64,000 nt of DNA, from assembly GCF_021155765.1 (NCBI RefSeq), contig NC_060110.1, positions 21,040,001 to 21,104,000 of the forward strand, written 5' to 3'. Shown here one piece after another: positions 27,907 to 64,000 of the stretch (the stretch's first letter is position 1; the number at the start of each line of letters is the position of its first letter). The notes below the pieces were generated by a model, which was not told where the DNA came from, did no database searches, and saw only the letters and a list, made by a program, of their open reading frames with translations. Both the position numbers and the translations under genes were made by a program. The stretch comes from Diprion similis (taxonomy: Eukaryota; Arthropoda; Insecta; Hymenoptera; Diprionidae).

Positions 27907-30453
27907 ATGTCGTCGTCCGTTGTTTTGCTTACCCTGGTCACTACGCTCTCAGGTTTGTGCAAAAACCTTACCAAAGCAACAAAAACTATAGAATAATAGC
28001 ACAAAACAAGGAAGTAAGAGACACAAGGTTCCTCACACAAATGATGATAAAGTTACCAATATACAGGTCAATACTGTGCCGAATTTGAATTACAACCCTT
28101 TGCATGTGCTATATGCCAGTCAGAAAACACCTACGATTTTACGTAGGTGCCTTATACATGTCGCTTCTTATTATAGACATTGAATAAATCGATGTGGAAG
28201 CCAATGTGTTCAGTTGACGTGGATTTACTGTGACTCTTTGGCCATTCGATTTCACATTTTGCAAAGCGATATCTTTTTATTTACAAAACCTTATAATCTC
28301 AACAAGCGCAGTTACATAACCATAAGATAATATTTAGCAAATCCAATGTAACGCTTTACGTAACTGGTTAGTAGCCAGCGACTGTCTCGTTGCTTATAAT
28401 TTCTCATTCAACTCAACGTTACAGGCACGTAACATCTACGTCACCATGTTACTATTGGTTATATTGCCAATACTTAACAATGGCATAACAGTTAGGTAAC
28501 GCGTTGTAATATGTGAGATAGCGTTGTGATGAATATGTTTCGCAGGCCCGTATGCTTTAAAATCTGAACTAATTTGAACCTTGCATGGACATGATCCTGA
28601 ATGTAGCTTTACGTAGTGGAGTATTTTCCTGAAATAAAATTCCGCAGTGGCGTTACTGTTTCCGGCTATTGATAACCGCAGTTTGGGTATAAACCAGTAT
28701 TTTCAATTCATCGAAATCAATCAACAACCGAAAAAGAACTTGTCAAATTCTCACTTTTGCAAGTTACGCGTTTTACACGGTCATGTCAGTAAGCATTAAA
28801 TTTAACACGCGTGGATGAAGTCTCAACACATCATAAATATCACGCATTATACGACACGTCATAATCAATGGGGCATTGAATTACGCTTCTGCCGCTTCGT
28901 CGATCCAGTTATCTGGTCACAACAGGAAGCTTTTAGCATATGTCGTAGCTCGCCAGGTTGTAAATTGATTGATCACCGCCTTGACCCGTTGATATCCCAA
29001 CCTTGAAGATCTCTAAAGCGGTTTCAGAAGCTCCGACTACAACGAACCGGTGTAATTCGGTTACAGAATTGCCTCTAATTGAACTATTCGGGGTTCTAAG
29101 ACGAACGTCTCGTAGTCAATGTAGTAGCTTCTCCTCAATGGGTACCCGTTCACATCATTTGACGTTTCAGGGATCTACGGAGCCCGGATAAAAGAACTCA
29201 ATGTACCCAGCGTGGTCCGGAATGGAACGGGGCCGGTAACTCTGTCCTGCGTATACGAGGTCAAAGAGGACGAAAACGGTCTCGTTGTTAAGTGGTTTCA
29301 CGACGAAGACGAGCTCATTTATCAGTGGATTCCTCCGAGTGAGTGTATACCGCATACTGTACCTATAATAAAATGCAACTACTTCTATTGAAAGTGGAGT
29401 GGTCGAGTGACGAAAGTTGATTGAGTCGGGTTTTTAATTTCAACTTAATATATCCATTGAGAGCAAAAGTAATAATCCGTGGGAATCTGACATGAATCAG
29501 AAAGACGAAAAAGATGTGGTACAATCTGTGCAGGCTATTCTCAACATCGCGAGGAAGAATAATTCTACATTCTTCTTTTAGTGCCTCCGCAGGACATCGG
29601 CGTGATAACTGGACGGGCTGAATACCCCGAGGAGCTCCTGGGTCGTCCTCGAACGCACTCGATAATCAGACTGAAAGAGGTGACGATCGAGATGGGAGGA
29701 AACTACACATGCAGCGTGAGCACTTATCAGGAAGAAGAGATGAAAACGGCGCGGATGATCGTTTATGGTATAATAATTGATCGTGGATAGGCGATGTCGT
29801 ACTAAATGAAAAGCAAAGGATTATGCCAATGACAATCGTTTGTGTTTCCGTCTGCAGCCCCGGAGACCAACGTCACCATCCACACACCGGAGTTCAACGA
29901 CACTCACACCCGGCTGACCTGCACTGCTCAAGGAGCCTGGCCGAGACCCTCTTTCGACTTCCGGATTGACGGAGCCTCGGTCGAAGGTCGCATGGTCTGG
30001 AACGGAATCGAGAACTATAAGAAGGACGGGTTCCTCGTCCGGTACGACGCCGTCATACCGAAGCCCAGGGAACCGGCGCTCGTCGAGTGCGACGTCAACA
30101 TCCCGAGGACGGAATATCGCCGACGGGAAAGCGTCATCTACTACCCTCGTTCGCATCGTTTCACTTCTACTTCCTCTGCGTCCACGTCCACCACTGTGTC
30201 CGCATCCGCGTCCACGACTAGCGGAAGTTCTTCCTCTTCTTCGTTGACACCCACCTCAGGACCTCCTTTACCCTTGACCTCGGTTACCACCCTTTCTACG
30301 ACTTCGACCGCTCCTGCTGCATCCACTTCCGCCTCTCCCTCGCCCCCAACGACCGAGCACGCTGGTTCCACCACTCCATCGACGAAATCCTCGGAATCAA
30401 CCGCACGGATCGTTGTCAGCACTCCTACAGATGCACTGAAACCCTCGCTCTAG
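27907..30453 (+). CDS. Secreted two-Ig-domain protein with Ser/Thr-rich stalk
   Basis: Exons 27907-27952, 29171-29338, 29582-29767 and 29858-30453, 996 nt, 331 aa; every junction is phase 1, typical of extracellular Ig modules. Exon 1 is a signal peptide (MSSSVVLLTLVTTLSG). Exons 2-3 make a V-type Ig domain: LSCVYEV with the first Cys, VVKWFHDEDE with the core Trp, and GGNYTCSVST with the second Cys. Exon 4 begins a second Ig domain (LTCTAQG...ALVECDV), then about 100 residues of Ser/Thr/Pro, likely an O-glycosylated stalk, and ends without a membrane segment. N-glycosylation sites NGT, NYT, NVT and NDT are present. The layout resembles insect beaten-path-like Ig proteins, but I do not recognise the specific gene. 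Part of exon 4 may be spliced to the tail exon at 31179. Confidence 0.72.
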
Positions 30454-41374: not shown

Positions 41375-44300
41375 CTACTGTTTTTTCGCGAGTTTTTGAA
41401 TTCTAGCTTTCAATCCCGTGTTGCCCTTCTTCACCTTCTCCACTTGTCGTTTTTCCTCGTATTTTTTTCTCGCCCGTTCACGACGCTCCTTAGCTAATCG
41501 TTGCTGCTCCTTTTTCCATATATCCTACAAGATTAATAAATCAGAACAATTCCAAGAAATAAAGCACCACGCTCCACGGTTTTAAAACTTCGAACCGAAA
41601 GCGCGTACCTTGAAGTCTTTACAAAAACTCAGCCACAGTACGAAGAAATCATGGGGATCAGCCGTATCTAGTGTCGCACCCTTGGGCACGTACTGATAAA
41701 ACTGCATAACAACTTTGAATTTAAGTCTAGCCTCCTGCAAGCCTTCCTTTTCATTGGCAAGGTCGATTACAGCTTTGCCAAGGAACAGCTCCATCTTCTC
41801 CTTGAAGGGTCCCACGTTTTCGGGATTCGAATCAGCAACCATTTTGTACTTAACGTTGCAAGCTGTAAGAAACAAAGTTTTTTTTCACGTTATTCTTTCG
41901 GTTGCAATTAAAAAAGCTGACGTCTACTCACCTTCCAATTCCTTTCCAAGTTTGTCCAACTCCTTAGTCAAGTCCTCGAAATTGATGGTAGCGGCTGCTT
42001 CCACGTCGGCTGGTTCCGGAACTGGCAGCGGCAAAGGTTCATCGAGGTTCTGACATTCTTCCTGTGCCAACCTGGCCCTCACCACGTAGTGGAGCAAGGT
42101 CACGCCGGGTGCCTTCGACTTGACGTCTTTTAGTTTTCCCAAAATCTCGAGGCCGAATCCGTCGGCCTGTCCACGCATCCGGTTACCACCGTTCATGTAA
42201 TTCCCTAACGTCAATATCAGCGCCATTACTTTTTTCAACGAGTTTGAATTCCGGAGGTATTCGCAAATTGACCTAAGGTTCGTTAGTTTCGAAGAGAGAC
42301 TCGATATCGCGTCCTGGAACTCTGACTGGAACATCAGGCAGGCTATTCTCTCAGCAAAATGTGGTATGGATGATAGTTGTTTGAGAAACTTTTCAGGCCT
42401 GTCAAGTGGTATTTCAGGATGGGCTTCTTCGTGAGCAGTTATGTCTTCGAGCTCTTTAGGCGACGGTCTCTGGAAAGTATTTAAATAAGTTTCAACTTAC
42501 ACGGGTCACTTTGATAATAACGGAATGAAATTTGAATCATTTTGGAGTATGTTTTGGTACCTACAACTTCGTAAATTTGTTTCAAAGCCTCCAAGTTCAC
42601 AACGGCCGTGTCGAGGGTGTACACAGCATTCTCTACTTCGGAGAAATCAACATGCAAACTTTTCTCCAATATTCCAACCATTTTGGATCTTTTACTGTCT
42701 AATATTTTGGCAGGTTGAATTTTCGACGGTTTATCCGCCTCGTCTTTTTTCTTTGTCGGCTTACGGTCAATTACTTGGCGTGAAAATAAGTCTGAAAACT
42801 CTGTCATGTCCAATGATTTTTCTTCTTCTATTTGTGCCCACAGCGGAATCTGTGCAGAGAATTTTATGGATGAATGTTTTATCAGTTTATAGCAACTATT
42901 TTCATTACCGATAGATAATAATTGACTGATAGTTAAACTGTTTGAATCTACAAAAATTTAGTTAAACTCGATGTTCCCATCAAATAATAAATGCTATATA
43001 AATCAAAAATCTACAATAAAAAGTATCCTTTCTTCACCTGCGTAGGAGAATCTGGACTAACATCCTGCTTCTGCGTCATCGTTACGGGTACTAGTATTCT
43101 CGTCCAATACAAGGGTTTCATTGGCACCGCTGGATTCAATGGCTCTTTCCGTAAAGCTAATGGATGAAAATGAATATGAAAAATGAAGATCAATTGCACA
43201 CTTCCCAAGAGTTCTATTACAAGTATTCTCTACCCAGGTTGATAACTTAATAATAAGACTTACTCGCTCTTCCTGGAGGATTCCATCCACCAGCGGGAGG
43301 TACAGGAAATGGCTTTGGGCTACTTCCTCCTAGCGGTGGAGGTGGTGGTATCATTCCTCCTGGAGGTGGTGGTGGTGGTGGTCCACCCATACCGGGAGGT
43401 GGAGGTGGTGGAGGCGGACCTGCCATTCCCGGCATCGGAGGTGGTGGTGGTCCCACCATTCCAGGCATCGGAGGAGGTGGAGGACCCAACATTCCCGGCA
43501 TCGGAGGTGGTGGTGGTCCCATCATTCCTGGCATCGGGGGTGGTGGAGGAGCCAGCACTCCCGGCATCGGGGGTGGAGGAGGAACTGTCATCTCAGGCAT
43601 CGGAGGTGGTACTGGCCCCGCCCCCATTTCTAGCATTGGAAGAGGCGGCGGCGGCGGTGGAGGAGGAGGACCAGCAGCCATTTCCGATGTTGCCAATTGT
43701 TCTCCATCGAATATTGGAGGTGGAGGCGGAGGTGGAGGTGGAGGTGGTGAAACTATCGGTTGATCAGCCGGCGGTGGAGGTTCAGGCATATCAGGTATAG
43801 GAGGTGGAGGTTGAGGTTGAGTCACTGGATTTTGAGGTATCTGATCGTCCACCGGGCTTTCGATGGTCTTCAATTTAGGCGCCACTGAATGAGATGTAGG
43901 TTCTGGGACTTCAGAAAGCAGGTTGTCGGATGTTTTATTAGCGGGAGATAGTGGTGGGCCAGTGACCATGTCATTGACGGTCTCCACGATCGTGGGTTCT
44001 TTGATAGCATCATTGACAGGATCCTTGAGAATCAAAGCATCTGTGGACTGCCTAGAATCGTTGGCCATCTCCAAATTGTTTATTTCCTCCGTAAGCTTAG
44101 TCATATCCGCGCTAATCTTGGCCAGAGAAAAGTCGAGATTCGTATTTTCGATGCTGGTTTCGTCCTGTATTTTCATATCGGTAAATCTTCTCGCAAGGAT
44201 AGAAAGTTCCGGATTCTTCCCGTTCTCCACCATCGGCTTCGCCTCAGGTGCGGCAGTGCCGCTTTCCTTCGGCGACGAAAATCCTTGGGGATGATGGTCT

Positions 44301-47300
44301 TCGCTCGTCCACTGATCAAGCGACGTCTCGTTCTCAGAAATGGGCGACAATGTCAAAGCTCCTGGCATTCCGTCATATCTGGAGTCCTCGAACCTCTGAG
44401 AAAAGGACTTTTCCGAGGATTCCAGCGAGCCGTCAATCGGACTGGCTGTGAATCTACCACTTTCCACAAAGCTCTTCGTCGGCGATAGTTTCTCCGGTGA
44501 TGTCTGGGTTGCTTGACCCATCGCCAATTTCTCGTAGCTGTTTATCAGCCCTCGTAATCGCGTCACCTCGCTCCGTAGTGCGCTGAGTTCTTCCTCAAGA
44601 CGACGCATGTTTTCTGGCGACCAGCTTTCACGTCGCAACTTACCCGGGCTTGTTATCACCGGCAGCGGAGATTCCTGGTGTGACCACTCGTACATCAGGT
44701 CTGGCTGAATACATGAACATAATTATTCAGCGGAAAAATGTTAAGTTTTCACGAGAAGGGTAGGTACTTGAACTGCATCTGGATCACTTTCTTACCGTGA
44801 AGTTAACGTCCTTTGACGCAACCCTGTCTGATAGTGGTTTAAGAACTCCGGCGGCAACCAGGTGGGCACAGACCGTGGAACCGAGTTTCTTCTGATCACC
44901 TTCCGTCAGCTGGTGTCTCAGGTGATCCGGTAGCCCGGCGACGAGCCAGTTCATCAGGTGTTGTCCTGTACAGCGAGAAGCAACAGTGATTAGGAACGGG
45001 ACGGAAAAATTCATTTTGGAGCTGTGATGGAGGACGGTGAAGGGCTGATTGGAGAGTGACGACAAGTCTCTTTGGTATTCAAACAGCTGCTTCGTTGTTC
45101 GGTTTCAAATTTTCCGCCAAAGTCCTTACAACGGTTACTCCAGCGGTTTTTGATGGCGTATCTAATACCTCGACTCAGATCGATTCTAGTTAGTAACAGT
45201 ATACGTCTAGCGCCTAAATGATGCGCCTGTGTCAGTCCGACACTGTATTACAACACGAACGCGATACCGGTAAAAAGTTTATTGATTGACACTCACTTCT
45301 CGAAATAAACACTCGTGACTTGAATTCAGTTGCTGCATGTTTCGTAAAAAAAGGCACGGAATAAAATTTTTTATATCAGTGGCCGATACCGAGGCCTAAC
45401 TTTGATGTTTGTAACGAATTTTCTAAACTACATTTGAACAATGGAGAAGTTGGTACCGCGGTGGAATCATCTTCCGGTATCATCGAATGATATGCATATT
45501 TTTTGTCACCTCGATTTGGTAAGAAAAACTGAAGCCGATGAATTTCAACCAACAGTGTATAAAACTGTCAAGTATGGTAGCTTTTTTACCTCATCCTGGA
45601 GCCAGACACGCCGCGGGAAACTCGCCGTTCGAAACAGACTTTTAACTGCGATAGAATCCGGCCGTTTACGGCAATGTGGGAGATCTGGGACACTGCTTGG
45701 ACCACGTGACGCATTCGACTGTTTCGTGTAAACGTCACGTGCCCCTTGTCATATGTATGTTCCTACATCTATACATACATATACTGAGGCATTTATGTAC
45801 TTGTGTGATGGTAAAAGCGAACGTTATCCTGTATCCTATTACAATACCAACACATTTGTAATGCTGCTTGCGTTGGTCTTTACATATGTAGGTACTGCTC
45901 CATGAGTCGATAGGTGAACAGGGTGGCCTACGCACAAAGACGTTTTTAGTCACCGTCTATCTTTTGCTTGGCCAGGTGGGCAGTTAGTGTGGGTCCCTTA
46001 GGTCCTTGGCTAGCCTGCGGAACATGGTTCGCTGTGCCATTTCACCTTTAATGATTCGATATCGGGCTATAACACAGCGAGGTTCACGCGTTCTGATATC
46101 GCTAATCAAACCCTCTTCAAAGTTCTTGAAATGATAGAATTTATTGGGAAAGAAACGTTGAAATGTATGGAGGATCTGTCAATGCCAAAGTCCAGGATTA
46201 TCGCAGATTTACCTTTCTTTTTAGATTTATATAGTGACTGTAGGAGTGCTTAGCGGTGAGATTTAGGCCAGTGTATTTCAATTCATGACAAGTCGATAAT
46301 GCGGTTTCAACACTTTTATCGTTTATTGATTGATTTTACGATACGACCATGTTTCGGAGCGTAATGGCCTGAATAGCTGGGGGATAGTTGATGCAGACGT
46401 CGATATGGATACCTTTACGATTTATACTTCTAAAACAGTACCGATACTTTGAATGTAAACTTTGAAGTGAGTCATGAAGAATCGGAGCTTACTTTAAATT
46501 TATAACCTTCGCTAATTATACGCTCAAGAAACATCTCAGAAGTCTTCAACGAAAGTAATTACGGTTGAATCGAGAGTAAGAATTGTCTTCAGGTGATCGA
46601 GGATAGTAATTGTGAGAACGATGAAGTCGAAGACGGTGCTGCGGTGAATTGGAAGGATTTTTCATTCAACGGTTATATGTAGTTTTATTGGAGCTTTACT
46701 CTTGATGTCACCAAATGAAAAAAGTGACATAATGAGATTAACCAGAAGCTCAATGTTGAGCTGACTTGAAGAGAGTGTGTAAATACTAAAACGAAGTTGT
46801 GCAGCGTGTTAACAAGATAGTAAAAAATCCTTAAACCGACCTTCTCTGCTTTTAAAACCACGAGCGAAAGTGTCATCGGCCATAGTTATCGTGGTGAGAA
46901 CCTTGGTGATGTTCCTTGCACCGATGTCCTCAATATTTTTTAAGAGTTTGAATTCCAGGTGAACTTCCTGGAGGATGACGTCCGACTTTTCTCGTAATTC
47001 ATTTTGCTCTATTATCTCCCCATTCTTCCTAGCAAAGTCTAGGTCTTCAGCTCGTGTTTTTGTCCTAAAGATTCCTAGGTTCCAATGATCCAAGAAACCA
47101 GGATGCATCAGCATCTGTCTACGACTAACGCGGACGCGGTCCTGTAGAAGGGGCGTCAGCATAGTCGTTTCAACCGGCATCACGCACATCTTATTCGGAA
47201 GCCCTTTCACCTTCATCGATAAAATCTATGTTCACCTCGAAGAGGGCGGATTCTTATAAGTGCCCATCGTTTTCCTCAGCTTGGTTATTAAAATTCGCAA

Positions 47301-50300: not shown

Positions 50301-53066
50301 AAAATGTCGCGTTGCGTAGGGATCGAACAAAAAAAAAAAAAAAAAAAACTAAAAAATAAAAAATAAAAAGATACGTTCAAAGCATATTTGCTCGGCACGC
50401 CCGCTTGAACGTAACGATCATGCTGCTGTATAAAACGAATATCGGCAATGAGGATGTTACCCGCAGCGTTCGTCGAGATCGTTAGAGTTTAGAGTTTTGG
50501 ACCGTTATAAGCAGCCGTTCGCTTCGCCAGAGCCTCCGGGCACTTCTGCCGATTGCTTTGGCCAGGCCGTCATATTCGTGCTACGGAATCAGCTCCGTTA
50601 AGCGCAGGCTTACAACCGTTCGATTAATTTTCTTCCCAACTTTGCCATCGGCAATTTACCCGTTTTGCATTCCATTCAAAGCCTACAAAAGCTTGGATTC
50701 GCGGAAAAGTCTGTCTCCGAAAATTAATAAACCGCATCAAAAACTCACTTGTTATAGCACCAAAAGCTCTGGTGGTAAAGCCCCCCCCCCCCCCCCCCCC
50801 CTCCTCCTCCACACGAAAAATCGGATGACATAGAATTTAGATTTAGATTTAGATACATAGATCAGCGCTGTTACGATTGGAAAAGGGGCTGGAACGTGGA
50901 CGGCAAAAATGCGTAGCAAAAATTTGTCCAAAAATATTGTATCTGAAGTTTTATTCGGTCGAGCATGCCCGAAAACTCAACACCTTGTTTCCGGTTATTC
51001 AGGGTTCCGATAACAAACGAATGAAGTGTTTTGGATTATTTGGATATCGTGATTTTGGATAGCCCGTAAAGTCAGATTTACCCTTGCGGACTTTGAGTTT
51101 TCGAGTTTTTTGATCTAGGTCGTATTTGTGAGGTAAAAATTGGACTCCTCGAGCATTTTGCACCCCGTGTGAAATGGATGAAAGTTGAGACTCACCGTTG
51201 ACTCGCTGCGAGGCAGGCGGGAGGTCGATTTTCTTGTGCCTGGCGACGGTGAATCGGGTTCTCGTCCGGTCTTCCCTGTCCTCGGCAGGTAGGGGATGCT
51301 CGTCCCTGACGGGAGGCAGGGATCCCGAATCTGCGACCATGCCGCCGGGATCGGTGAAAACGCTGTCGCTGGACGATGACTCCTGGCTCGGCGGCGTGGG
51401 CACATCAGGGGTAACCAGGCTCTTGTTCGCGCGATGCCACGAGTCCGTGACCAGCAGAGGAGGCCCCTCCGAGCCGACGCTGAGGGACGTGGGTGGGGGT
51501 CCCTCGGGCCCCGAGCGGTCCCAGGGGTCCGGGGGACGCGAGGATTCGAGAGGCTGAGGTGGGGGGACAGGACCGGATTCCGGCGGAGCCCCGGCATCGG
51601 GGTGGACGATGTCCTTTGCCTCTTCTTCCTCTTTCTCGTCACGCCGGCCGTCTTGAAATCCGGGATTTTCTGGTGAGGCCTGTCAGTGCGAAGAGAAATC
51701 GTGCGAGCGTGAATGGTAAATGGTGAGTGACGGTTCCCCCTCTTTTTTCTTTTTTTCCAAGCAGTCGTAGCATCTGGTTGACAGAGGCAGTCATCGTAAA
51801 GTATCTTTGCTGCACAATACTAGCTCGTACTGCTCTATGAACTGTTCTAGATTCTGCGTATATATGTATAAACTTATACCAACGCTACGCAGAATGATCG
51901 TGTAGTCTTTTTAACCGTCTCGTTAGTGTACATAGACCAGAAAATTTATCTCACGGAAATCTTGACTTGTTTACATATACACACTATATGTATACATATA
52001 TATATTCTATATACCTATACATTTGTGACGAAATAATGTATAAAAATAACAAATTATATACGGCTTGTGAACTCAAGTAATTGTGAAAAGAACCTTTAAT
52101 CTGCAGGATACGGAAATAGAAACGTTTCAGGGAATTTCAAATTCGTATCTAAACATTACTCGAAATCAGTCAAACTCATCTAACGGAGAAATTATTTTTT
52201 CTAACGCGCGAATTCTGAGTGAAGTTTGAATTTATACGAAAAAATAACACTAGTCACTAGTATGATTTGAAAAATAATACCTGCAGTCAAATGAACTCCT
52301 CGACTTGATCACAAGGTCTTATTTGCTTTAAGTAGTTGAGTTTATTCAACAGATTCGTCACAGTACCTATTTTTTCTTGTACTATATGTATAGCTGCTCA
52401 CTATCTTGTGTTCTAAAGTTCAATAACCACTGATTGTGTACAAACGTTCATTCTTTCAAGTGAGTTAATTCAGTCCACAGTGAAACACACTAATTATACG
52501 ATGCAAGCTCATATTACATGTTCACCATAGTTAACACGATAAACGAGGTAATCATCCAATGACTTTCCTCTGCACGTTTGTACGATGTGAAAAATTTTTA
52601 CTCCTAATGTAACCATAATTCAAAAGCATTACTTGACAGAGAAAAACGCTGGTTAGTTACTGGTCTTATTTTCTATCAATCGACACCAGACAACATTGAC
52701 TTGAATTCTAAGCAGGGTGGGTCACTCCGGCGTGAGAAGATAGTTCGAACAGCTTCTTTCACGACGTGTAACAAGTGCGCGAATGCTAGGCTAAGATTTG
52801 GTGAAATAAGTTAGCGAGCAAAAGGTTGTTACGAAAAATCCTAGACAACGTTCGCGATTGAATCGATCGAAAAAGAGACTCACTTTCGGTACCTTCTGCC
52901 TTCTGGCCGAGGTCTGGACCTTCTCGAATGCGACCTTGTGCTCGGACTGGTCCAGCTCATCCAGACTCTGCGAGAGCTTGGAGGTGGGATCTGCGGCTCG
53001 ACTGCTGGTGTCGTCGTTGGATCGGTTCTTCTTCTTCCGTTTGGCATCGCTTTGTAGATTGCCCAT
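41375..53066 (-). CDS. capu: Cappuccino, FMN-family formin (long isoform)
   Basis: Exons: complement of 53066-52884, 51679-51196, 48633-48430, 44965-44796, 44704-43264, 43156-43038, 42849-42565, 42469-41932, 41862-41609 and 41524-41375, 3828 nt, 1275 aa, all phases consistent. The N-terminal region contains [18 protein letters not shown], as in Drosophila Capu. Then come a coiled coil ([19 protein letters not shown]), a proline-rich FH1 region (about residues 635-825) with repeated PPPPPMPGM units, and an FH2 domain (about 835-1226) with [29 protein letters not shown] and LGKLKDVKS. The short basic tail ([16 protein letters not shown]) fits the Spire-binding end. Capu nucleates actin filaments with Spire and sets oocyte polarity in flies. 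The start [13 protein letters not shown] fits N-myristoylation; an upstream in-frame ATG at 53276 is possible. Confidence 0.93.
43390..43610 (-). repeat. Proline-rich minisatellite in the capu FH1 region
   Basis: Near-identical 33-bp units encode PPPPPMPGM followed by two variable residues (VLA, MG, LG, VG, AG). At least five units run in tandem. Each Pro run is a potential profilin-binding site, so copy-number changes would alter the number of profilin sites. Confidence 0.8.
44966..46808. other. capu intron, part downstream of the nested ORF
   Basis: No exon is supported. A 96-codon plus-strand frame at 45441-45731 is unrecognised. An unpaired CAGGGTGGCC word at 45919-45928 matches the left terminus of the TIR element at 36.2 kb but has no partner. 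Confidence 0.45.
46809..47216 (-). CDS. Nested intronless ORF, 135 aa, unrecognised
   Basis: An ATG-to-stop frame lying wholly in the capu intron between exons 3 and 4, on the same strand. The product is hydrophilic and mostly helical, with [19 protein letters not shown], then a charged helix ([22 protein letters not shown]) and [19 protein letters not shown]. There is no signal peptide or membrane segment. The spacing R...L..E...+..EL...G is loosely like small ciliary microtubule-inner proteins such as CFAP141, but this is a guess. It could also be an alternatively spliced capu exon, although no acceptor precedes it in frame. The composition is less AT-rich than the surrounding intron, which favours a real gene. 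Confidence 0.55.
   Translation of the reverse strand: MKVKGLPNKMCVMPVETTMLTPLLQDRVRVSRRQMLMHPGFLDHWNLGIFRTKTRAEDLDFARKNGEIIEQNELREKSDVILQEVHLEFKLLKNIEDIGARNITKVLTTITMADDTFARGFKSREGRFKDFLLSC
47217..48429. other. capu intron, part upstream of the nested ORF
   Basis: If the nested ORF is a gene, its promoter lies here. A 104-codon plus-strand frame at 47506-47820 is unrecognised and judged uncertain. Confidence 0.4.
48430..48691 (-). CDS. capu: Alternative first coding exon of capu (short isoform)
   Basis: The capu exon at 48633-48430 is open upstream of its acceptor. A start at 48691 ([20 protein letters not shown]) reads without splicing into the shared STLNAATPT sequence. The isoform would be 1072 aa and lack both the MGN N-terminus and the acidic exon at 51196-51679. 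The acceptor TTTCCAG used by the long form lies inside this frame, so the two forms are mutually exclusive. Confidence 0.55.
48692..51195. other. capu intron / alternative promoter region
   Basis: There is no further exon. It contains a TATAAAA word at 50426-50432 followed by GC-richer sequence (possible plus-strand promoter), a poly-A run near 50329-50347 and a 21-nt C run at 50781-50801. Promoter elements of the short capu isoform should lie just right of 48691. Confidence 0.4.
51680..52883. other. capu intron 1
   Basis: AT-rich DNA with TATA-type microsatellite near 51980-52010. No exon is supported. Confidence 0.5.
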
Positions 53067-56000
53067 TTCGGGCGTCCCGGCGGCGATGCCAACTACCCTG
53101 GCGACTCCGGCATCCCCGGCATAGATTGCCGCTCTCAACGAGTTTATCCAGAATCGTGCTATTTCTCTCAGCTTCGGTCTCTGAGGGCGCGACTCGGCTC
53201 CACGACCGGCGTTTGCGCACTCCGATTTATCCCCGCCGTTACCGACGTCGTTCACGTCGCTCGATAACAGAGACATGCTTCCACTACATGCTGATCTCAA
53301 CGTGTTGGTGTCTCCGGCACGTTTACCTTCGTCACGAGGCACGGCGACCAGCTGTCTTTGACAGCTGATTTCCTGATTACATTCGCCTTCTCCTACTCTT
53401 TCGCTTAGAGTTATAGCCTCAACCCCTTATCACGCTTCTTTTCTTCTCGCCTTGGTTTCACTGTCCGCATACCGGTGCGTGGTTAATCCTTGTCGAGTAG
53501 ATTGGTCCACGAGCTTAAAATGTGTATTTAATATTATCTGGTCGAGAAATTATCGCGTTAATCGTTAAAACCGTTAAATAATCGGAGCACTTGCACCGGT
53601 TTATGAAAAGCGAAGCTTTGAGTCTGCTTGATGAAGTCACATTGGTTTTGGGTTCGGTGGAACGTTGCGTAAACACGAAATGATTGTGTTGATATTCCTT
53701 AGATCGAGCACGTATAACCATTGTAGTATATTAACTTTGCTCAGCCGTGAAGAGAGCGGTTCCTGCGTCATTCCCTCTGCTTGGTGTATTTTTGTCAGGA
53801 TACGAATGGATTCACGCGGAAGTTCCGCTGCGCTGTGGTAGTAGAATACGTACAACAAAAGCTACACCGGACATGAAGTCACGAGATAATAGCGCTGTAC
53901 TACTGCTGTGCTCACTGCCACATACACACAAACAGTGTTTATCGATGAAATACGGAAACGGACAAAGATCGTGTGAATAATGGCTTGGGTGACTAGGTAT
54001 TCACACGCCTGGACGTCATCCTCTTCGGTAATTCACATCACTACGATCTTCGCAGGACGCGCCGACGGTGCAGATGCGGTTTTTTTTAAATCGCACGAAA
54101 GGAGCAGATGCGTGGACGGAAGTAAGAGGAGTTTCAGAAAACACAATTTTCTTAGGTCTCAAAGTTTTCAAATAAATCCTCTCTTATTGCATTCTTTTAC
54201 CTTCATTTTTGCCTTATTTTTGACCAGGTGCGTAAATATTCTCGGTATCAAATTATCGTTAATGGAAATCCTTCGTCTTGGTTGGATTAGTATTTTTTTG
54301 AATGTACTGCAACTTTTTAATAATGCCAAAAATACTGTAACTGGTTCAAAAGTTCATGAAATTAAACCTCACGATTTATCTTCGATTTTAATTTCATTTT
54401 AAGATCGCAATGTTCACATAAGCAGCGACTTTCTTCAAATCGATCGGGTTACGGTGGTTCAGTAACCTCGGCGCGAACGTGAGGGTGAAGAAAACTGATA
54501 TTGATTAAGACACCTATAATTACACTTGCACGTGAGTTATTTGATTGAAAAAACTGTTTTTTTTTTCGTATAATAAGCGTGAAATCTGTACGACGTGCAC
54601 GTTAATCGTGTTAAAGCTTCTCCATTTATCGGTGCTGTTGGAGAGTAGAAAATTGTTTCACTGGTTCGACTGAATATGAGTTGACGAAAGCCTTTCACCT
54701 TTCACGGAGTTTGATACGCACTTAAAAATGTTTATTCACACTTTTCCATTCAAATTTTGAGCACAATGGTTTCTTTAATGAGAGGATTGAAATAAAAACA
54801 ATTCTAAGCTCGTACCGATTTCGATAGTCTTAAGTAAAATGGAAAAGGAAAACGGGTCGCTGGTTTGCGCTACCCGGCCCTGGACTTTATTTTCTCGCTA
54901 CGATGCTTCTTGCCGAGCAGCCGCTGGTCCGTTGACCCAGGTTTACTGCACATTGACTACCGCTGCCACCCCCAGGAAGCCTGCAGTTTAGAGGCCGGGT
55001 TGTTTGTACCTTTGCGTGTAAAAGCCGGTGCGCAGGTAAGCTACACATGGACATACATACTCAGGTCGATTCTTCGGCATCCCGTGAGGTCGGGTGAGTT
55101 GTAGTAACAGAAGCTCTGGAGAGAAAAAATTCTCTCCCAATTTTTCTGGATTCTAGGAATTGCAGTAATATTACGAGTGAACGAAAAATCACTGTTTTGT
55201 AGCTTTAGGGTAACTTTGAAATAGTTTCATTTGCAAAATATAAATACAAAGCTTCAGACGGTACTAAAGTTGCAAAATTAACGTAAGTTTATTAATTCTT
55301 TTCGTATTCAAATCTCGTTGACAAATTTTTTCAGACAATGTACACAATTTGAGAGGAAAAAAATGAGGACAATAATCGCCTTTTCTTCTTTCTTATACGA
55401 TTTTATAATTTAATCAATATTCAATGAAATATTTTCCCGCTACGATTATCTACTCCGCTGCGATAAAACAAAGATTCTCGACTTTACAAATCATTGTCGG
55501 TGTGAATAATTTTGTAAACTAAGATTCCAAAACAATTGTTCTACTCATACCCTGATAGAAAATTTTCTACGTGCGAATAGTGCGGCGTTTTTGAAATTTG
55601 CAGAGCTGACAACTAGCTAGTTTTTCGTGCCAATCCGTTTGCCTATGCCGGTGCAGCTTACGAAAAAAACGATAACGAAAAAAACTGAAAGCTCGCTGGT
55701 CACTCGTGATAATCTGGGGTGCGGGTGAAAGGGGATCTTATTTTCTGCTGTAACAGCAATAAAATCCGAATGTGCTTCACTGCTATAGATTTATTGCGTA
55801 GCAGAAACGTCGTGGAATAGAGAAACGCAAACGTAAAATACGGACTACGGCTTGCTGCCATGTTTACCATTGTTGTTAATGTTTATAATGGCGCGACGCA
55901 CGGCGTCCAATCTCGATGCGGGGTCACTGCGGTTGCCCATTTTTACACAGAATATTCCTCGCAGATTGCTGAGCGACCGTAGCGCGTCGCATCGACGCTC

Positions 56001-60591: not shown

Positions 60592-62636
60592 TGCACAGTC
60601 ATTCCTCGAATACGTTTATTCACAATTATAATCTCACACTTCGCTCACGATATAAAAGTATAAAATACACGGGATTTTCACAGGTCGTTGTGTAATTGCT
60701 GGCTTCCAACAAATTTTTTATTTAAATTGCGGGAAATATGCAGGAATGACGATGAGAATACTAAGATAGAAATACTAAGGATACACATAGTAAGAAATTT
60801 CGGGCAAACTCAAGATTCTGGAGTCGACTTTGCCCGAAATGAAAAAAAAATTAATGTGGTTCCTTGATTTTTCGCCAAGAAATCGATCAACAATAATAGT
60901 TTGTGACGAGAAGTTTGAGTTTCAAAGACGCGATTACACGCGTTTATGAACTCGAAGAGGCACAGGAACCGAAAGTGAAGGGTTTGCGTCGAGAAGTTCT
61001 CTGATACCCTCTCCAATAGCTTGAATAAGTCTCTTCGAAACTAACTGGTTGAGCAGCTTAGCGCTTAGTATTGAGAGCTTGCGGGTTGTTCAGTTGAACC
61101 GCGGTCAAAGCTTTTCTGGATAGACGCTCATCATCATTTTCTCAAGCACGACTTTGCTTTTCTTTTTATTGCGTCTAGTCTGTGTCTGTGTGACGCGAAA
61201 GCTTTTTTGTCATCGTTCTCGTCTAATGTTTTTCGATTTCCGAATGTGCGTCTGTACTCTCGTTGGCGTTGCACAGTTTTATGATAATTTTTATGAATTC
61301 GGTTGTCTGTAAATTGCGAAAATGAAGGGGAAAAGAGGGTGTGAAATTTAGATTCATATATAACATGGATCAGAAGCCAGCATCGCAACAATAACGAGAT
61401 AATCATATTTTCGATCGTTTGATAAAAACTAAATTAAAATATGTGTACGTATCTATATATATATATATATTTATAATATCGCCTCTGCTTTGGCAGTCTT
61501 TTCATTATAATAGGTATATTTATATAGGTACTTCCATCGATATATAATTTGAATTAGGTATAGTTAATCGATAATCACTTTCATATCAACGCGCACCAAG
61601 TTTATGTATAACGTATAATTTATTATCTTCCAACGTGCTTCCAACGTTGCAGCCTCAATTTTTTTAGTTTTATACATAGGTACGTGCATCTTCTTCAAAT
61701 CACAATCAATTTTTCTGGATTGTTTTTTTTTTTTTGTTTTTTTTTCGTTAAATTTATATTCCTGTTTTTGAGTATGATTCGATATAATTTGTTCATTATC
61801 GTTTTATTAACATGTCGTTAATTTATTATCGGGAGTGCGCAACGAAAATATTCCATACTGAAGACAAGATCCTTCAGGAATGAAATACGAAAAATTATCA
61901 ATGACTTTATTTCACATTCGTTCAAAATTTAGCTGATGATGCAAATAAAAAAAAGAAAGTGACCAAGTTGTTCGAACAAAAAAAAAAATAAAATAAATAA
62001 TAACTATCATGAAATTTAACGATATGACCTGAACCAAACTTGGTGTAAGACGTACATTTTTCAAAGTAACAGTTTCGCATCGAGTTGCGATACTTGGGAA
62101 ACTAAGACTGCTTGAATAAACACCAAGCAGTTTTGTTACAAGAAAAAAAAAAAGGAAAAAATTCACAAAGTTTTGCGCGCACACCCCCGACACCATCGTG
62201 TATTGATATTATTATGACTCATTACCGTAGGAACAACAGCTCGTCATTAACAGTAAAATAGTTCATCGTTACGACATCGTCACAGTTTTTTTTTTTCTTT
62301 TTCTTCATCTTTCTTTACGTCTCTGATTTACTATATTTAGATATTTATTATACATTTGTTCCTCCTCGTTTAATAATTCGTTTTCACTACTAATATTATT
62401 ACAGGTAGACTTTGTCACTCCCTCATTCGCGTTAATAGTTTATCGACAATAAATCCGGCCCGAATACGACGACGGTGAAGAAAATCGATATTCACCGTCG
62501 ATAAATGAGTTAACCAGTCACTACCGTCATGCGATGAAGAGAAGAATAATAAAAAAAAAAACACCAAAAAAAAAGAAAAGAAAATAAACAAAAATAAAAA
62601 AAACTACCAACAACCACCGCATCATTCTTCCCCCGA
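56701..62636 (-). other. Probable long 3' UTR of echinoid
   Basis: About 5.9 kb of very AT-rich DNA with no coding frame, directly downstream (minus strand) of the echinoid coding end and running to near the YY1-like motif. It holds microsatellites: AAT/TAA repeat near 57055-57102, TA repeats at about 58380-58428 and an ATCA repeat at 60545-60591. Neural and adhesion genes of insects often have 3' UTRs of several kb; assignment as UTR is inference. Confidence 0.45.
60545..60591. repeat. ATCA tetranucleotide microsatellite
   Basis: About 11-12 perfect tandem units of ATCA. Confidence 0.9.
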
Positions 62637-63518
62637 TCACAACTGTTCCGACAATATGATAACCCGAAGTGTCTGTATATTATTATCGTTCTGTTGCAGC
62701 GCTTTCTTCTGCCCCTTGAACGAGACTCTTCCCTCCTCAAGGCTTTCTATGGCGGTGTGTTCGCATCCTTCGGCCTCTGCGCGCTCCCCTTCAGGGGCAG
62801 CATCGCTTCCGGGTGTCCCGGGGCCCCCGTTTCCGGTCCCATTGCTGCTCGCGGGTGGTTCGTGGGCTTCGATGACGTCGGGAATGGACAGTGCGGCGGG
62901 GGATGCGATTCGGTCCCCATTTCTGGGCCTGGGGCTGAGCCTGCCGAGAGTCTCTCCGCGTGACTTCATTTCCAAAGGCGTCGGGGTCCGAATGGGACTG
63001 AACCTGGCGACCATCTGCTCGACGTGTCGCGTCGAGGGCCCGTCGGGGGTCTGGATGGCCGGCTTACTTCTCGAAACGACCCCGAAGCAGCCGCCCCCCT
63101 CCTCCTCAGCCCTCGACTCGGGGTTGCCGCGCTTCTCGCGGCCCCTCAGCCGGCCCAATGTCATCGTCGAATTTGGGCCCCCTTCGGCCCCCGTCAGGTG
63201 GCGCTCCTCCGTAACGGGCCCCGCGAGTCGCGCCTTGGCGTAGGCAATGCGGTCCTCCGTCGACGGGACCTCCGACACGGACTCGAGAAGGCCCGAGCGA
63301 TCCACGCGCCGCGGCGGCGTGGCCTCGAGGCGATTCTGGGCCGGCATCTCCAGCAGGCCCGAACGGTCGACGCGCCTGACGGGCGTCGGGCCCTCCAGCT
63401 CCGGGCCCCCACCCAGCTGCAGTCGTTGGCTAGCGAGGCTCGCGAAGTATTCGGGCGGCGGAAGCGCGTGCCGCGACGAAGTCTCCCGCGGATTCTCGAT
63501 CACGATCTCCATCTGGTG
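62637..63518 (-). CDS. Candidate alternative echinoid C-terminal exon, 293 aa
   Basis: A 294-codon GC-rich frame (ATG at 63512, open from 63518) preceded by acceptor CCCGCAG. Joining the internal donor at 63696 to this acceptor is phase 0 to phase 0 and gives KPPQH-HQMEIVIENPRE. The product is Pro/Arg/Gly/Glu-rich and probably disordered. A repeated motif, RRVDRSGLLE, occurs twice (residues about 50 and 70), which argues for selection on this frame rather than chance. Other parts are PPPEYFASLASQRL, STEDRIAYAKARLAG and FSPIRTPTPLEM. It ends IILSEQL, not a PDZ ligand. The GC-rich patch also opens other frames on both strands, so the coding call is not certain. Confidence 0.55.
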   Translation of the reverse strand, partial: HQMEIVIENPRETSSRHALPPPEYFASLASQRLQLGGGPELEGPTPVRRVDRSGLLEMPAQNRLEATPPRRVDRSGLLESVSEVPSTEDRIAYAKARLAGPVTEERHLTGAEGGPNSTMTLGRLRGREKRGNPESRAEEEGGGCFGVVSRSKPAIQTPDGPSTRHVEQMVARFSPIRTPTPLEMKSRGETLGRLSPRPRNGDRIASPAALSIPDVIEAHEPPASSNGTGNGGPGTPGSDAAPEGERAEAEGCEHTAIESLEEGRVSFKGQKKALQQNDNNIQTLRVIILSEQL

Positions 63519-63605
63519 CTGCGGGTGGCGGGCAAGGAGCTGGGGGTGGGGGGCCCGCTGCTATAGCCAGGTGGTCCGCGGATTCCGCGGGCCGGTGGGC
63601 TGTCC

Positions 63606-63775
63606 TCAGACGATTATTTCCCTGATCACCCGACGGCCACGGCTGTTCGGGGTCGAGTATCCGGACTCCAGGCTCTCGTCGTAGGAGAGACTCACGTGCT
63701 GTGGCGGCTTCGCGTCCTCGTCGAGACCCTCCAGGTACGGGTCTGGCAGACCGGAAACGTCGTGGTACGGGGAGT
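63606..63775 (-). CDS. ed: Echinoid, last exon of the canonical form (partial gene)
   Basis: An exon opened by CCGCACAG|AC encodes, from phase 1, SPYHDVSGLPDPYLEGLDED, then KPPQHVSLSYDESLESGYST, and ends GRRVIREIIV and TGA. The C-terminal EIIV is the known PDZ-binding motif of Drosophila Echinoid, an immunoglobulin-family adhesion molecule of adherens junctions that binds Canoe and Bazooka through it. The upstream exons (Ig and fibronectin domains, membrane segment) lie beyond base 64000, so only about 56 cytoplasmic residues are seen. The paralogue fred is the main alternative. Inside the exon is a strong donor, CAGCAC|GTGAGT at 63696/63695, which allows an alternative end. Confidence 0.75.
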
Positions 63776-64000
63776 CTGTGCGGAAAAATAAGAAATTTTT
63801 TTACACCCTGAAGAGTGACTGGAACGAGGGTCTCCTGAGCGGAAAAACTCCAGTTTGGAGAAGTTATATTCTTAAGACTTGGAGTATTTTTCTTTACGAA
63901 ACAACGTCTTCAAGTTCCTCTAGATAACGATCAAATTTAGAGTTTTCAACGATTTATGGTTAGGTATGATATGGTATTTAGGATCACCTTTCAATTTAAT
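63776..64000 (-). other. Echinoid intron at the window edge
   Basis: AT-rich sequence upstream (minus strand) of the last echinoid exon. A pyrimidine tract (TTTTTACACC / TTATTTTTCC) precedes the acceptor. No other exon is seen before base 64000. Confidence 0.55.

Follow-up and report, generated by a model that had tools for sequence, protein, structure and literature searches.

A candidate optional terminal intron likely gives Echinoid of Diprion similis two alternative C-termini

The window analysed here, a stretch of 64,000 nucleotides (nt) of Diprion similis DNA (contig NC_060110.1, positions 21,040,001 to 21,104,000), carries on its minus strand the 3' end of a gene that we take to be echinoid by its domains and its C-terminus EIIV. 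The best reading of this region, which we consider likely, is an echinoid gene with two ends that would be made by an optional terminal intron. The alternative C-terminus is most likely genuine, with one form ending in EIIV and another form with a long tail. If the intron is retained, translation would end after EIIV and the remainder of the exon would be 3' untranslated region (UTR). If it is removed, PPQH would be joined in frame to a tail of 293 residues, which would replace the final 29 residues, EIIV among them. Counted from RRK, the intracellular part would grow from 229 to 493 residues upon splicing. An earlier note on this DNA had proposed such an alternative intron, and this proposal is partly supported: the echinoid identity, the coding-like tail and the in-frame route stand, while splicing itself, the production of both forms and their roles are what we infer from these features.

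Identity of the gene

The analysed sequence is the window joined to 60 kb that overlaps it and extends past its end, 123.5 kb in total. Upstream on the minus strand, two large open exons with Ig domains are found by Pfam, one of them with one fn3 domain too. A transmembrane exon has no Pfam match, and its hydrophobic stretch was recognised by eye. Ig domains, fibronectin III and a transmembrane segment, the feature set of Echinoid, are all present on the exons examined. Further intracellular exons join the last exon in frame in silico, and the predicted protein ends in REIIV and has the C-terminal PDZ ligand EIIV expected of Echinoid. The frames, the Ig/FN3 Pfam domains and this C-terminus confirm the earlier claim that the last echinoid exon ends in EIIV. 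Its C-terminus presumably shares more with fly Echinoid than this motif. For the fly protein, the C-terminus is reported as EIIV (PMC3899232), and seven Ig and three FN3 repeats are described, together with a C-terminal PDZ-binding end that is able to interact with Bazooka or Canoe (PMC12377819). In a DNA search of the 269-Mb genome of the species, positions 62600-64000 match only themselves, and no close DNA copy was found elsewhere in it.

The exon ends of echinoid are inferred from reading frames, not from cDNA. With the window numbering continued, one Ig exon on the minus strand seems to end in phase 2 at 72152 (AAC/GTAAGT; a slash marks the splice boundary), and the next large exon seems to begin in phase 1 at 71754 (CAG/GT), so that a small intervening exon or another splice site is likely.

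The candidate terminal intron

The last exon begins after CACAG at 63775 on the minus strand, reads SPYHDVSGLPDPYLEGLDEDAKPPQH/VSLSYDESLESGYSTPNSRGRRVIREIIV and closes with the stop TGA at 63608-63606. Its internal donor and the acceptor CCGCAG/CAC, with 63518 as the first exon base, delimit a candidate intron of 177 nt that joins phase 0 to phase 0, exactly as had been claimed (Table 1). Within it lie the 29 codons with which the EIIV form ends, the TGA that follows them and, in the same frame, another stop at 63563-63561 (TAG). Its length is a multiple of three, and the tail and EIIV lie in the same frame with the two stops, 14 sense codons apart, between them. When the exons are joined in silico, both forms are in frame from the transmembrane exon onward, in agreement with the claim that splicing would exchange EIIV for the tail.

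The donor CAC/GTGAGT is similar to the inferred echinoid exon ends AAC/GTAAGT, AAT/GTGAGT and CGC/GTAAGT. Only five GTRAGT words occur in 12.4 kb of the locus, namely three inferred echinoid exon ends, this donor and one word within an Ig exon. The upstream exon ends that were read are in phase 1 or 2, none in phase 0, and a donor within the last exon is therefore required. One other donor, at 63629 (CGG/GTGATC), is also in phase 0 and has a better U1 duplex energy; 63695 is preferred as the sole GTRAGT in the exon. Skipping of the last exon into the tail was rejected, since it would require an acceptor that matches the phase 1 end of the exon before it, and no such match is found among the 11 AG in 63560-63401. 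Further phase-0 AG are found close to the acceptor, with first exon bases at 63560, 63557, 63539 and 63512. In-frame joining is cheap here, as 7 of 12 exon GT and 11 of 13 AG in 63606-63401 form 42 in-frame pairs. Because this number results from the open tail frame, frame compatibility by itself is weak proof.

A word scan for AATAAA and ATTAAA, the only two poly(A)-signal words looked for, finds neither from 63700 to 62374. Neither word lies between the two stops, and therefore both forms probably share one 3' end, with both mRNAs probably using one poly(A) region. With a shared 3' end, the choice would be to retain or to remove one intron. No exon junction would lie 3' of either stop, so both mRNAs are expected to be stable.

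The same region could be read as a separate small gene or a second cistron starting from the ATG at 63512, an explanation that we regard as highly improbable. This ATG has a G at +4 and lies six bases past the acceptor in the tail frame. However, it stands directly behind an acceptor that is phase-matched to a donor in the upstream exon, and neither AATAAA nor ATTAAA is found between it and echinoid.

Table 1. Features of the echinoid 3' region, in window positions.
Feature	Position	Strand	Basis
Last echinoid exon, EIIV form, including stop TGA 63608-63606	63606..63775	minus	upstream Ig/FN3 exons by Pfam
Donor CAC/GTGAGT, G of GT at 63695, phase 0	63690..63698	minus	splice word
Candidate alternative intron, 177 nt	63519..63695	minus	splice words and frames
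Acceptor CAG/CAC	63518..63520	minus	splice word
Putative alternative terminal coding part, 293 codons and TGA 62639-62637, ending SEQL	62637..63518	minus	frame, codon and period-3 tests
First RRVDRSGLLE copy	63348..63377	minus	direct repeat
Second RRVDRSGLLE copy	63282..63311	minus	direct repeat
First poly(A)-signal words past the tail stop, ATTAAA 62374 and AATAAA 62349	62344..62374	minus	word scan

Coding character of the tail

The tail frame is probably coding. The GC-rich frame of 294 codons that had been described consists of 293 codons and the TGA at 62637, and it is coding-like by both period-3 and codon score. The period-3 power of the tail is 5.09 against a shuffle mean of 0.71, and none of 500 shuffles is as high. 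Its codon log-likelihood, under a model trained on 1129 echinoid codons with the tail excluded, is matched by none of 2000 shuffles. The codon score, which penalises stops, is -0.021 for the tail, near that of an independent control, a proline-rich formin exon (-0.014). For the 3' UTR it is -0.68 to -0.86 across six frames. In 11 of 13 sub-windows the tail frame outscores the other two sense frames, and its GC content at the three codon positions (0.67/0.54/0.77) follows the same order as in the echinoid exons. Stop to stop, the tail is the fourth longest open frame in the 123.5 kb, behind two echinoid exons and the proline-rich formin exon.

The tail also contains the region's longest direct DNA repeat, whose copies differ at five of 29 nt. 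Extended by one base it comprises ten whole codons that encode RRVDRSGLLE twice, which confirms the duplication claimed earlier, and its six differences are all silent in the tail frame. When six such differences are placed at random, all of them are silent in 63 of 200,000 simulations. Translated in either of the other two sense frames or in two of the antisense frames, the repeat copies share 4 of 9 residues.

These results bear on another explanation, in which a GC-rich 3' UTR happens to be open by chance and no tail is produced. In its favour, this stretch has long antisense frames too (244 and 200 codons), and among 2000 dinucleotide shuffles of the tail, 5 are open in some sense frame across all 293 codons. 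Against an accident stand the period-3 signal, the codon score, the exclusively silent repeat differences and the drop of GC from 0.68 to 0.31, whose best change point is 56 nt ahead of the tail stop. Moreover, GC reaches at least 0.62 in only five of 1226 sliding windows (900 nt, step 100) of the 123.5 kb, and all five overlap the tail. An accidental frame is very unlikely in our view.

It is also conceivable that the intron is constitutive and the tail form is the normal product; splicing would then affect nearly every transcript, leaving EIIV as a minor or residual reading. The full GTGAGT donor, the short intron and the silent-only differences between the repeat copies would fit this explanation. 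On the other side, this gene retains an intact EIIV, with which fly Echinoid is reported to end. The 29 codons past the donor have a codon score of 0.198 per codon; however, these codons belonged to the training set and show a weak period-3 signal (59 of 500 shuffles). We consider constitutive splicing unlikely.

Several observations weigh against an optional intron followed by a coding tail. The donor, which had been called strong, is unremarkable in its pairing with U1: by pairing energy it ranks 51st, counting ties, among 649 GT in 12.4 kb, and it is surpassed by three GT within 62637-63775. The intron fold is not more stable than shuffles (z -0.07), and a structured RNA switch is unsupported. 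In the tail, 2 of 13 sub-windows favour another sense frame, the second half is weaker in period-3 (3 of 500 shuffles as high), and synonymous-only codon usage is not discriminating (1203 of 2000 shuffles equally good). In one antisense frame the two repeat copies still share 8 of 9 residues; the silent-difference test therefore separates the tail frame well from four frames and less from that one. No relatives of the tail were found in viral and genome contig collections (no insect genome collection among them), in Pfam (E up to 1) or in the PDB (E up to 10). Finally, since the tail shares the frame of EIIV, translation could formally reach it by reading through two stops. By such a route the tail would be reached unspliced, through TGA 63608 and TAG 63563, which are the only stops between EIIV and the tail. 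However, this route requires passage of both stops, and coding scores from the EIIV stop to the acceptor (63607-63519) are low in all six frames (-0.42 to -0.77). We assign readthrough an almost negligible probability.

Predicted properties of the tail

With an optional intron as the preferred explanation, the spliced form would gain one PPEY, nine SP/TP sites, the twice-used RRVDRSGLLE and a C-terminal helix ending in SEQL. PPEY is a WW-binding type motif; the common intracellular part already carries PPPYY. Single-sequence AlphaFold2 prediction of the tail gives a mean predicted local distance difference test (pLDDT) of 48.3, with 207 of 293 residues below 50, and models a helix at tail residues 253-292 with block means of 50 to 86. 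The mean hydropathy of 0.416 is borderline with respect to the Uversky boundary of 0.418. Most of the tail is thus predicted to be disordered, in line with the earlier description, whereas the final ~40 residues, contrary to it, are predicted to be helical.

The earlier note had concluded that the spliced form would be unable to bind Canoe or Bazooka through its C-terminus. This goes too far, since SEQL is possibly itself a PDZ ligand. With E at -2 and L at 0 we take it to be class III-like, and the SEQL-ended form may still bind PDZ proteins, perhaps different ones. Leucine is reported as the last residue in many peptides bound by C. elegans and human PDZ2 and PDZ3, a statement that does not cover fly Bazooka (PMC3899232).

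Another donor-like word, GAA/GTAAGC at 63067 on the minus strand, is found within the tail and could shorten it.

Neighbouring genes

A formin gene is located at 41927-44722 of the window on the minus strand, with FH2 at 41927-42496 (Pfam) and a proline-rich open frame of 491 codons at 43250-44722. The latter, our control exon, has no Pfam match of its own, and the gene's next large open frame matches FH2. The gene is presumably cappuccino-like. Three open frames of 211-234 codons with GC of 0.54-0.60 lie at 51002-53426 on the minus strand and are perhaps 5' exons of the formin gene; a Pfam scan of two of them, 51002-51682 and 52794-53426, gives no match. On the plus strand, a Ser/Thr-rich open frame of 206 codons is found at 29833-30450. 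Its start resembles part of an Ig domain by eye, and it has no Pfam match at 0.01.

Possible function and comparison with known systems

The PDZ end of Echinoid is its presumed route to Canoe and Bazooka. With two ends, the EIIV form would be junctional, whereas the tail form would interact with different partners. More specifically, a regulated intron could turn Echinoid from a junction anchor, which binds Canoe/Bazooka via EIIV, into a long-tailed receptor that carries a SEQL ligand and a second WW-binding motif. Such a switch, which might depend on tissue or stage, could link adhesion to another pathway such as Hippo. This proposal is speculative and we hold it to be doubtful. Should a single short intron control the presence of the PDZ end, splicing could modulate adhesion and signalling with the extracellular part unchanged, and the long-tailed form would naturally parallel the truncated constructs with which fly Echinoid has been studied. 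Among the literature matches listed for Echinoid, covered by titles, abstract starts and term counts, none concerns alternative C-termini, and such an isoform may still be in print.

Neuroglian is an Ig-family adhesion molecule. In Drosophila, the neuronal last-exon choice of nrg is reported to depend on Elav, which acts by bypassing the proximal poly(A) site (PMC8055025). In the echinoid region, neither AATAAA nor ATTAAA lies between the two stops; provided that no other signal marks a proximal poly(A) site there, the region would differ from this Elav-type last exon. Exitrons are likewise introns that lie partly within otherwise coding sequence and are either retained or spliced out. However, they are described as lacking stop codons by definition (PMC4484396), whereas the echinoid intron holds TGA and TAG in frame and is thus not an exitron. 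Nectins, like Echinoid, have a PDZ-binding motif, through which they bind afadin, and with the exception of necl-4 the members of the family are reported to have splice variants (PMC7286890). Drosophila Flamingo/Starry night offers an adhesion receptor isoform with its own C-terminus, as proposed here: a specific isoform ending in DDETTV is reported to be pulled down by Bazooka PDZ domains (PMC3899232). It is a different receptor, and the echinoid switch would consist of one intron within the last exon whose removal adds 293 residues.
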